Shown here piece by piece: positions 33,537-41,578 of a DNA stretch of 64,000 nt. Location of the stretch: positions 62,001 to 126,000 of the forward strand of contig CAMCXT010000002.1 of assembly GCA_945883545.1 (NCBI GenBank), written 5' to 3'. The first letter of the stretch is position 1. Every line of letters starts with the position of its first letter. Source of the stretch: Chitinophaga pinensis (GTDB lineage: Bacteria > Bacteroidota > Bacteroidia > M30B66). The position numbers and the translations under genes were made by a program. The notes under the pieces were generated by a model that saw only the letters and a list, made by a program, of their open reading frames with translations, was not told the origin of the DNA and did no database searches.

Positions 33537-34036
33537 ATATAAATACTTTTTAAAAAAAGGTTTAAAAGAAAAGGTAGTATTTAATAAGCGTGTTAGTACT
33601 GTGTGAAAAAAGTTAACGCTCTTTTTGCAATTGATGAAATCCACCATTTGCAAACACAAAATTAACAGTTAGTTTTTGATTAAGGCTTTGATTTGCATAT
33701 TTATCTATGCTTATTAACAAACTACTGAAAACGTTTTCAGATGAAAAATTCTCATCTTGTTCGAGCACTTTTTCTGTTAAGAGAATGTTATCAGAATGCT
33801 TAATCACTGTTATAGATTTTGCTTGACTTATATACATTAACTTTATAAGGAGCATAAAATCTATGTAAATCAAGAAAACTTTATTGCTACTTTTCCATAT
33901 TGATTAACAATTATTAACAAGAAAAGTGTGTGTAAAATTATTTGTGAGCACCTGATACTCAGGACTCGAAAAAGTTGACAAAATTTGCAGGGCTAATCAT
34001 TTTAAACTAAGAGACATTCTCAAAAACAGCATCTTC
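33537..34036. other. 500-bp divergent intergenic region, nadA / rpiB
   Basis: AT-rich stretch between nadA (-) and rpiB (+). It holds the doubtful small reading frame at 33613-33855, several A/T runs and regulatory room for both genes. I see no clear hairpin terminator, RNA gene or riboswitch-like conserved core. Confidence 0.5.
33613..33855 (-). CDS. Possible small protein upstream of nadA, uncertain
   Basis: An open frame of 80 codons from an ATG at 33855 (another ATG at 33837), ending 77 bp before nadA. Its protein has a hydrophobic start ([20 protein letters not shown]) and an ordinary mixed composition afterwards. I recognise no family, see no convincing promoter, and the reading frame could be chance in an AT-rich intergenic stretch. 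Confidence 0.3.
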
Positions 34037-34465
34037 ATGAAAATTGCCATTGCTGCCGATCACGCAGGCTTCGAACTTAAAGTACAACTTCTCCCGTTTC
34101 TTCATCAACTTGGCTTATCTACTGAAGATTTAGGATCCCACTCTTTGGATAGTATGGATTACCCAGATGTAGCTCATCCTTTGGCTGCTCAAGTAGAATC
34201 TAGCGAAGCAGAATTTGGTGTATTGATCTGTGGTAGTGCTAATGGAGTAGCAATGGCAGCCAATAAGCATCAAGGAATTCGAGCAGCAATTTGTTGGAAT
34301 ACTGAAATTGCGTCTCTTGCTCGTCAGCACAACAATGCAAATGTTTTGTGTCTTCCTGCTCGCTTTATATCTGTTGAAGAAGCCTTTCAAATCACCAAAA
34401 CTTTCTTGGATACTGAATTTGAAGGAGGTCGTCATCAGCGTAGGGTTGATAAGATTGGTTGCTGA
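34037..34465 (+). CDS. rpiB: Ribose-5-phosphate isomerase B
   Basis: A 142-residue RpiB/LacA/LacB-family sugar-phosphate isomerase of the non-oxidative pentose phosphate pathway. The N-terminus IAIAADHAGFELK has the conserved Asp-His, SMDYPDVAHPLA follows, and the active-site Cys lies in LICGSANGVAMAANKHQGIRAA (the usual CGTGxGMxIAANK with SANGV instead of TGIGM). The C-terminus has CLPARFIS and EGGRHQRRVDKI. The ATG at 34037 fits the family start. It is followed after 72 bp by the DUF4175 gene. Confidence 0.95.
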   Translation: MKIAIAADHAGFELKVQLLPFLHQLGLSTEDLGSHSLDSMDYPDVAHPLAAQVESSEAEFGVLICGSANGVAMAANKHQGIRAAICWNTEIASLARQHNNANVLCLPARFISVEEAFQITKTFLDTEFEGGRHQRRVDKIGC

Positions 34466-38322: not shown

Positions 38323-38754
38323 CTGATAACATTTCATCTGCAGGACATTTCATTTCGCCTGCAACATAAGCTACTGATCCGTAATTGGATTAAAGAGGTC
38401 GCCCGGTCTGAATCTAAACAGACGGGCGATCTCGTTTTTATATTCTGTAGTGATGAATTCCTGCTCAATATGAACAAGGAATACCTTCAACACGATTATT
38501 ACACAGATATCATCACATTCGATTATTCAGAAAATGAAAGAGTTGCTGGTGAAATGTATATTAGCCACGATCGTGTTTTAGACAACGCTAAAAATTTGAA
38601 TATTAGTGAATTAGATGAATTACACCGTGTAATCATACATGGTGTTCTTCATTTATGTGGATACAAAGACAAAACGAAAAAAGACGAGATTTTGATGCGT
38701 TTGGCCGAGGACAAAGCTTTGAAAATGCGACCTTTGCCGTTGCTCGGATTGTAA
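38323..38754 (+). CDS. ybeY: Endoribonuclease/rRNA maturation factor YbeY, apparent CTG start
   Basis: A conserved YbeY of 143 residues if read from the CTG at 38323. Translating from it gives MITFHLQDISFRLQ and a full N-terminal half; the first ATG is only at 38470 (residue 50), too late for the fold. Hallmarks: FCSDEFLLNMNKEYLQHDYYTDIITFDY, and the metal site HGVLHLCGYKD. H106 and H110 are present and the usual third His is D116, as I recall for Bacteroidota YbeY. Only CTG (38323), ATA (38326) and CTG (38338) can serve as start codons between the upstream stop and the domain. YbeY takes part in 16S rRNA 3'-end processing and ribosome quality control. It is 3 bp after the HATPase gene. Confidence 0.9.
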   Translation: MITFHLQDISFRLQHKLLIRNWIKEVARSESKQTGDLVFIFCSDEFLLNMNKEYLQHDYYTDIITFDYSENERVAGEMYISHDRVLDNAKNLNISELDELHRVIIHGVLHLCGYKDKTKKDEILMRLAEDKALKMRPLPLLGL

Positions 38755-38766
38755 CTACTTCTTGAT

Positions 38767-38774
38767 TACTTTTG
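38767..38774 (+). promoter_or_regulatory. Putative -7 element of the mnmG promoter
   Basis: TACTTTTG, an exact TAnnTTTG match, identical to the miaB -7 element, 41 bp before the mnmG ATG and just after the ybeY stop. A TTG lies 15 nt upstream (38749-38751), a little close for -33. Confidence 0.45.
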
Positions 38775-38793: not shown

Positions 38794-38809
38794 TGTTTCA
38801 CGTGGAACA
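38794..38809 (+). promoter_or_regulatory. parS-like centromere site 1
   Basis: TGTTTCACGTGGAACA: one base from the classical ParB site TGTTTCACGTGAAACA. It lies 6 bp before the mnmG ATG. parS sites bind ParB and load SMC/condensin and ParA systems near the replication origin in many bacteria. Its position beside mnmG (gidA) matches the classic location of parS near oriC. Confidence 0.8.
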
Positions 38810-38815
38810 CAAGCT

Positions 38816-40684
38816 ATGTTCAAAGAATATGATGTGATTGTTGTTGGCGCAGGTCATGCCGGTTGCGAAGCTGCTGCTGCTGCTGCCAACATGGGATCAT
38901 CTGTGTTGTTGGTTACAATGAACATGATGACTATCGGACAGATGTCTTGCAATCCCGCCATGGGAGGAATTGCCAAAGGACAGATCGTTCGTGAGATAGA
39001 TGCTTTAGGAGGTTATTCGGGCATTATTTCCGACAAGTCGGCGATACAATTCAAAATGCTCAATCTGTCGAAAGGGCCAGCGATGTGGAGCCCTCGTGCA
39101 CAGAACGATAGAAATCGATTTGCCGAAGAATGGAGAATGACACTGGAAGGCATTTCGAACCTTGATTTTTTCCAGGACATGGTCTCGGGATTAATCATTC
39201 AAGGAAATAAAATTACAGGAGTTAAGGTTGGTTTAGGAATAGAAATTAGAGCCAAAGCTGTTGTTTTAACCAATGGCACTTTCCTCAATGGGCTCATTCA
39301 TATAGGCGAAAAGAATTTTGGTGGAGGTCGCGCAGCGGAAAGAGCAGCAACTGGTATAACAGAGCAATTGGTTGATTTAGGATTTCAATCAGGAAGAATG
39401 AAAACGGGTACTCCACCAAGATTGGATGGTAGGTCTTTGGATTATTCGAAGATGGAAATTCAGCCGGGAGATGTAATCCCAGGGAAGTTTTCATATACCG
39501 ACACTCCCCTACTTTCAAAGCAACTTCCTTGTTGGATGACCTACACTTCAGGTGAAGTTCATGACACACTGCGAAAAGGATTTGATAAAAGTCCGATGTT
39601 TAGTGGTCGTATTCAAGGTCTAGGACCAAGATATTGTCCATCTATCGAAGACAAGATTGATCGTTTTGCCGACAAGGAAAGGCACCAGCTTTTTGTAGAG
39701 CCTGAAGGATGGAATACAGTTGAAGTATATGTAAATGGATTTTCAACATCTCTACCTGAAGAGATACAGTTTGAGGCATTGAAGAAAGTTGCTGGGTTCG
39801 AAAACGTAAAGATGTTTCGTCCTGGTTACGCGATCGAGTACGATTACTTTCCGCCTGAACAGCTTCAGTTAACTTTAGAAACCAAATTAGTTCAGAATCT
39901 TTATTTTGCTGGGCAGATAAATGGAACTACTGGTTATGAAGAGGCTGCTGGTCAAGGCTTGATGGCAGGTATTAATGCGCATTTAAAGATTCGTGGTGAG
40001 GCTCCTTTTATTTTGTCGAGGTCGGAAGCTTATATTGGTGTTTTGATCGATGACTTAGTAACAAAAGGAACAGAGGAGCCATATCGGATGTTCACCTCAA
40101 GAGCTGAATACCGGATTTTACTGCGACAAGATAACGCCGATTTTAGGTTGACTGAGCGATCGTTCAATATCGGGTTAGCGAAAAAGGATCGCTTAGATGC
40201 AGTTAAAGAAAAGTACATGCGTGTCGACGAGGCTGTTAAGCACTTGAAGAACGCTAGTGCAGATCCGAATGAGTTGAACCCTTATCTAGAGGCGCAACAA
40301 TCACCAGGAGTAACACAAAGGGTTAAGTATTCGGGAATAGTTGCAAGGCCGCAGGTTTCACTTATTGCAATGAAAAATGCTTTGCCATCTTTAAAGGATC
40401 ACTTTGAAGAACGCAATATTGATGACAATGATCTCACGCTCGCTGAGATCCAGATGAAGTATGAAGGTTACATAAAAAAGGAGCAAGAAGTAGCCGACAA
40501 ACTTGGTAGATTGGAGCACATTGAGCTTCACGCGAACTTTGATTATTCTGCTCTAAAATCTCTATCAACCGAAGCAAGACAAAAGTTATCTGCAATCAAA
40601 CCAAGGAACATCGGTCAAGCATCTCGCATCAGCGGCGTGTCTCCTTCCGATATTTCGGTGTTGATGGTTTATCTTGGTCGCTGA
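38816..40684 (+). CDS. mnmG: tRNA uridine-5-carboxymethylaminomethyl modification enzyme MnmG
   Basis: A 622-residue FAD protein that acts with MnmE to make (c)mnm5U34 in tRNA. The dinucleotide site is [21 protein letters not shown] (about 6-22). Family blocks: [146 protein letters not shown] and the C-terminal helical part with [14 protein letters not shown]-like [18 protein letters not shown]. It is between two parS-like sites, 6 bp after the first and 1 bp before the second. Confidence 0.98.
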
Positions 40685-40685
40685 T

Positions 40686-40701
40686 TGTTTCACGTGGAAC
40701 C
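40686..40701 (+). promoter_or_regulatory. parS-like centromere site 2
   Basis: TGTTTCACGTGGAACC, identical to site 1 except its last base, directly between the mnmG stop and the ATG of the next gene (40703). Same orientation as site 1, 1.9 kb away. Confidence 0.72.
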
Positions 40702-40702
40702 C

Positions 40703-41578
40703 ATGTTCAAAATCTCTCATTGTCCGGTTTGTTCCGGAGCCGAATTCAAGGGTTATTTAACCTGCAAAGACTACACTGTTTCTCAAAAGGAATTTGAGAT
40801 TGTACAATGTAAGTCGTGTGATTTTGTGTTCACAGACCCTCGTCCAGAGAACACAGACCTTGGTGAATATTATAAATCTGACGCTTATATTTCGCATAGC
40901 GATAGTTCCGCAGGGATTGTAAACAAGCTCTACAAAATTGCGAGGAGCTTTACTTTGAAAAGCAAATATGCCCTTGTGAAATCGTTTGCTGAGCAGAAAG
41001 GCTTATTAGATATTGGTTGCGGAACAGGAGCATTTTTGAATTACTGTGCACACAAAGATTTAGTGGTTGATGGCGTTGAGCCGGATGAAGATGCCAGAAA
41101 ATTCGTTCAAAACAACCATGGAATTTTGGTTCATGAAGAAGACCAATTAAAGAAATGGGAGGCACAGAAATTTTCTGCCATTACGATGTGGCATGTGTTG
41201 GAACACGTTCCAGATTTGAACGAAAGGATTCAGGAATTAAAGAACCTTCTAGACAATAACGGAAGGCTCTTCGTTGCCGTTCCAAACTATACTTCTGGAG
41301 ACGCAAATCGTTATGGGAAATATTGGGCCGCTTACGATGTGCCAAGACATTTGTGGCACTTTAGCCCAAAATCGATCCGAACACTATTCAACAAACATGG
41401 TTTTGTGCTCGAGAGAACATTGCCCATGAAACTGGATTCGTTTTATGTTTCGATGTTGAGCGAAAAGTACAAGAACGGCTCGCCTAGATTTTTGTCGGCT
41501 GTGTGGAGTGGACTAAAGTCAAATTTGGCAGCGGGAGACGATAAATGGTCGAGCCAAATTTACGTCTTTAAGAAATAG
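40703..41578 (+). CDS. Class I SAM-dependent methyltransferase with N-terminal zinc ribbon
   Basis: A 291-residue protein. Two Cys pairs at the N-terminus (CPVCSG and CKSCDFVFTDPRPE) form a probable zinc ribbon. The methyltransferase motif I is LLDIGCGTGAFLNYC (about 108), followed by GVEPDEDAR (motif II acidic end), and WHVLEHVPDLNERIQELKNLL (motif IV region). Methyltransf_11/23-type fold. The C-terminal part has PRHLWHFSPKSIRTLFNKHGF. The start is the ATG at 40703; an in-frame TTG at 40685 would place the parS site inside the coding part. The substrate is unknown (sugars and small molecules are common in the family). Confidence 0.9.
   Translation: MFKISHCPVCSGAEFKGYLTCKDYTVSQKEFEIVQCKSCDFVFTDPRPENTDLGEYYKSDAYISHSDSSAGIVNKLYKIARSFTLKSKYALVKSFAEQKGLLDIGCGTGAFLNYCAHKDLVVDGVEPDEDARKFVQNNHGILVHEEDQLKKWEAQKFSAITMWHVLEHVPDLNERIQELKNLLDNNGRLFVAVPNYTSGDANRYGKYWAAYDVPRHLWHFSPKSIRTLFNKHGFVLERTLPMKLDSFYVSMLSEKYKNGSPRFLSAVWSGLKSNLAAGDDKWSSQIYVFKK

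Follow-up and report, generated by a model that had tools for sequence, protein, structure and literature searches.

The window, by which we mean the whole stretch of 64,000 nucleotides that was analysed, carries mnmG (gidA) on its forward strand at 38816..40684. The gene encodes 622 amino acids and is recognized by Pfam GIDA (530 bits) and TIGR00136. It is followed by a gene for a SAM-dependent methyltransferase (40703..41578, forward strand; Pfam Methyltransf_23, from the ORF list) and preceded by ybeY (38323..38754, forward strand; Pfam YbeY, with an in-frame extension). The start of ybeY is probably a CTG: no ATG, GTG or TTG start covers the conserved N-terminus, the reading frame suggests CTG, and several relatives have CTG or TTG at the matching position. 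Between ybeY and mnmG lies TACTTTTG (38767..38774, forward strand), a Bacteroidota-type -7 element (TAnnTTTG) and the putative promoter of mnmG.

Two palindromes bracket mnmG. Site 1, TGTTTCACGTGGAACA, was found by motif search at 38794..38809 on the forward strand, 19 nt from TACTTTTG, and is separated from the mnmG ATG (38816) by a spacer of 6 nt. Site 2, TGTTTCACGTGGAACC, occupies 40686..40701 on the forward strand. It starts one base past the mnmG stop (40684) and ends one base ahead of the methyltransferase ATG (40703), so that 16 of the 18 nt between the two genes are taken up by it. An alternative, longer methyltransferase ORF with a TTG start at 40685 would run through this site. The preliminary description of this DNA had placed a 16-mer at each boundary of mnmG, and both are where it put them. 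Against the 16-bp parS palindrome TGTTNCACGTGNAACA the two sites have 0 and 1 mismatch. The statement that they are one base off TGTTNCACGTGAAACA is right for site 1 (1 mismatch) and wrong for site 2 (2 mismatches), and their shared orientation has little meaning since they are near-palindromes.

The preliminary description also reported no further copy in the window and proposed a search of the whole genome. The 16-mer is not scattered: the only matches to TGTTNCACGTGNAACA with up to 1 mismatch in the entire assembly (3.15 Mb in 119 contigs, 93% complete) are the two copies at mnmG, and a reversed-pattern control gave no match in the assembly at the same threshold. Base composition predicts 0.014 exact and 0.58 one-mismatch occurrences genome-wide, so two sites around one gene are not the product of chance. 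Relaxing the search to 3 mismatches gives 6 matches in the window, with both near-palindromes counted once per strand, where 0.65 are expected; none of the shuffles gets 6.

Conservation of the sites at mnmG

Sister genomes had been suggested as a check on the sites, and all 4 of the other genomes of the genus have both at the same two places. Site 1 is kept in position in 8 genomes of the family, and the place of site 2 is filled in same-family genomes by TTTCACGTGRAA or TTCCACGTGAAA. Two further members of the family, G007 and G008, also have both sites, and G006 has the upstream one together with a downstream site carrying two mismatches.

The association extends well beyond the family. Among 80 mnmG loci of related Bacteroidota, 61 have a site no more than 150 bp away (up to 2 mismatches); 37 have it upstream, 36 downstream and 12 on both sides. 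Of 5,514 control windows lying over 3 kb from mnmG, 5 contain a site. When the genomes with listed gene and site coordinates are tabulated, a non-random sample of 40, a site lies within 200 bp of mnmG in 38 and the gene is bracketed in 15. The low-contig genomes that were searched all have at least one site (up to 1 mismatch) within 200 bp of mnmG (14/14). At the level of the phylum, a compound pattern of parS closely followed by the mnmG nucleotide-binding motif matches 108 of 396 genomes and 27 of 172 genera, and since this pattern sees only upstream placement and particular codons, 108/396 is a lower bound. Its reversed control matched none of the phylum genomes. The compound-pattern matches are mostly in one family outside the class, where the upstream placement is present and patchy.

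Some departures from this regularity should be recorded. Certain mnmG-flanking variants have a CACATG core instead of CACGTG (G058 at C1:642558 and 644444; G089 at C1:1443817), possibly through altered ParB specificity or decay of the site. None of the Saprospiraceae has a site at mnmG. In several of the Saprospiraceae and similar loci (L237-L244), parS-like sites occur away from the gene, frequently where two convergent genes meet; a shared relocation of parS to a single position in this group is not borne out, since the neighbouring genes vary by genome. The relative G042 carries seven perfect sites in a regular array with a spacing of about 99 bp (C24:13202-13810), and a ParB family search of that genome gave no match.

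Sites of this kind are themselves known; those described here are real, ordinary and well conserved, and they are useful as a landmark of the origin. We found no paper stating a link between parS and mnmG in a literature search whose coverage stopped short of the parS survey of Livny et al. 2007, and the regularity may be unreported so far.

A probable chromosomal parS near the likely replication origin

We believe that the two 16-mers are very probably the chromosomal parS, the bacterial centromere, of this Bacteroidota genome, as judged from sequence, and that they lie near its likely origin. The preliminary description had already called them parS. The identification is supported by a single genome-wide cluster of few sites, an adjacent ParA and ParB with parS-type residues (R173 and G201), proximity to the skew origin and conservation in sister genomes.

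The protein side of the system is in place. An absence of ParB would have counted against the preliminary description, but the genome search finds a single ParB above the family cut-off (TIGR00180). Its gene lies on contig C6 with parA adjoining it in the same orientation, and Pfam recognizes all three ParB domains in the protein (N-terminal, HTH and dimerisation). In an alignment with solved chains of ParB, Spo0J and Noc, it has R, Y, K and G at positions 173, 179, 184 and 201. R173 and G201 contact parS, whereas Noc has Q173 and R201 instead, and K or R occurs at 184 in about 28% of ParBs (PMC7383237). These residues predict a ParB that recognizes parS rather than the Noc site.

In the scheme that we favour, ParB would load at the two sites, close into a CTP-dependent clamp as known for the family, and slide to neighbouring DNA. 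ParA would move the resulting complex, giving early segregation of the newly copied origin region. The sites probably sit in the gaps around mnmG because this is an ancestral origin-region gene to which parS stayed linked; dnaA and parAB would have moved off in several relatives. gidA is among the classical origin genes (PMC2099444). A distance from the sites to dnaA and parAB had been proposed as a further check; both are encoded, but on a contig other than that of mnmG.

The system resembles the ParABS systems of Bacillus (Spo0J), Caulobacter and Pseudomonas in its 16-bp palindrome with few near-origin copies, in encoding both ParA and ParB, and in the parS-type residues of its ParB. It differs from them in having two sites only, each in a short gap at an end of mnmG, in the location of parAB and dnaA on another contig, and in its lack of a detected canonical Smc. 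The best match to the Smc profile TIGR02168 in the 93% complete assembly scores 30 bits against a cut-off of 567, and 19 of 20 relatives also fall below the cut-off, with G010 alone passing. The profile is that of canonical Smc, as distinct from distant condensins such as MksB and MukB. Given this result, another complex may take over the loading step that usually involves Smc, or the step may be missing. It is important to realize that a ParB-parS system apparently working without canonical Smc makes the organisation of chromosome arms in this phylum a testable question.

The preliminary description took the locus to be origin-proximal, and the GC skew supports this. With 30-kb flanks the strongest skew change on the contig falls at 33.0-33.2 kb of the window, about 6 kb to the left of site 1; narrowing the flanks to 20 kb puts the best break at 32.6 kb, but positions 14 and 20 kb then score almost as well. 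A position near the replication origin, about 5 kb from the likely oriC, is thus supported, the origin being that indicated by skew. The skew profiles of relatives are a sampled and incomplete set, in which the sign changes at or near mnmG in G043, G080, G089, G067 and G058, and noisily in G081; in G029 and G064 the skew is too weak to be informative. The closed genome G048 disagrees: its main skew break, at about 2.2 Mb, is distant from its dnaA, mnmG and parS at 0-18 kb (mnmG and parS at 16-18 kb). When skew is averaged up to 10 kb from mnmG across 52 relatives, no consistent left/right switch emerges, so at this scale oriC does not keep a fixed offset from the gene.

The distance from mnmG to dnaA is about 427 kb in G043 and about 309 kb in G089, and that to parB about 733 kb and 671 kb. 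Thus dnaA, a gene often used to orient draft genomes, lies 0.3-0.4 Mb from mnmG and from the skew origin in these two. A parS beside mnmG is a simple landmark of the origin region in most of the Bacteroidota genomes examined. This agrees with Hi-C maps of gut bacteria including a Bacteroides (PMC10197239), in which parS clusters lie at ori; that work warns that dnaA is no reliable marker of it and remarks that its Bacteroides has no recognised condensin, in keeping with the Smc result above. Its passages on this point do not name mnmG/gidA as an anchor, and the present lineage is one known from sequence.

We also offer a new and concrete candidate for oriC, the divergent gap between nadA and an rpiB-like gene (33540..34036, no strand assigned). 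It is AT-rich and contains TTAACA and TTATTMACA repeats. Its right edge is the rpiB-like gene itself (34037..34465, forward strand), an ORF with conserved synteny that was named by eye from its sequence. No other 500 bp of the window is as poor in GC, and nowhere else in the window is TTAACA so densely clustered; the gap also adjoins the skew break and lies 4.8 kb from parS. In eight genomes of the family the gap is about 440-580 bp long and contains 38 TTAACA against 7.9 expected under a Markov model and 9 TTATTMACA against 0.4, but the motif was discovered in the same data, so the candidate is a lead and not proof. TTATTCACA, a form of the E. coli-type DnaA box, apparently matches the gap element in two relatives. 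Canonical DnaA boxes (TTATCCACA) with 1 mismatch are no more frequent in the window than expected (16 found, 15.8 expected).

Other functions for the palindromes

Could the sites be kept at mnmG for the sake of the genes beside them? The preliminary description suggested that ParB silences or insulates mnmG. This is unsupported: in many relatives just one side of the gene has a site, which weakens the insulation idea, and the Saprospiraceae have none at the gene. Transcription of mnmG may be affected mildly and locally. A broader proposal is that parS is kept because bound ParB regulates mnmG or the next gene, as a roadblock or repressor at the start of transcription, either beside segregation or in its place. 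TAnnTTTG precedes the upstream site by 5-21 nt in all 8 same-family genomes, so ParB would lie near the transcription start, and the intergenic parS3 and parS4 of P. aeruginosa repress their neighbours (reviewed in PMC7022226). However, placement differs by lineage, being upstream, downstream or both, and TAnnTTTG precedes mnmG about equally often with an upstream parS (19/33) as without one (28/46). Gaps at gene boundaries are also where non-coding sites can fit anyway. We consider regulation of this kind unlikely. It is quite improbable, in our opinion, that function and not only history holds parS at the mnmG boundary across the Bacteroidota, and that ParB just after the transcription start tunes mnmG, linking tRNA modification with segregation of the origin in chromosomes without canonical Smc.

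The CACGTG core is common to several regulators and not unique to parS. The palindromes might then be operators of another regulator, or sites of the Noc type, and some relatives do show the CACATG variants in the same place. We regard this as very unlikely. Over 14 bp the sites match GTTYCACGTGRAAC, which is the parS consensus, and the site preferred by Noc differs from it at two positions per half. Each genome also has its sites almost entirely at a single place, which in most of the informative genomes is close to the skew origin. Noc and its site, NBS, do share a protein family and a related palindrome with the present system, but Noc is defined by Q173, K179, K184 and R201 where the protein here reads R-Y-K-G, and both the specificity residues and the site are of the ParB/parS type.

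That the palindrome folds as an RNA hairpin in the leader of mnmG is the least credible of these suggestions, and we reject it. The isolated 16-mer can make a 6-bp stem (-3.4 kcal/mol), but the would-be loop, ACGT, is its best-conserved part: the central ACGT of the CACGTG core is present in 98 of 107 sites near mnmG in a search that required the half-sites alone. The sites also occur 3' of mnmG, and shuffled versions of the leader fold as well as the leader itself (z 0.53). A free loop would vary whereas this core is conserved, and there is no excess folding; the palindrome is therefore a DNA site.
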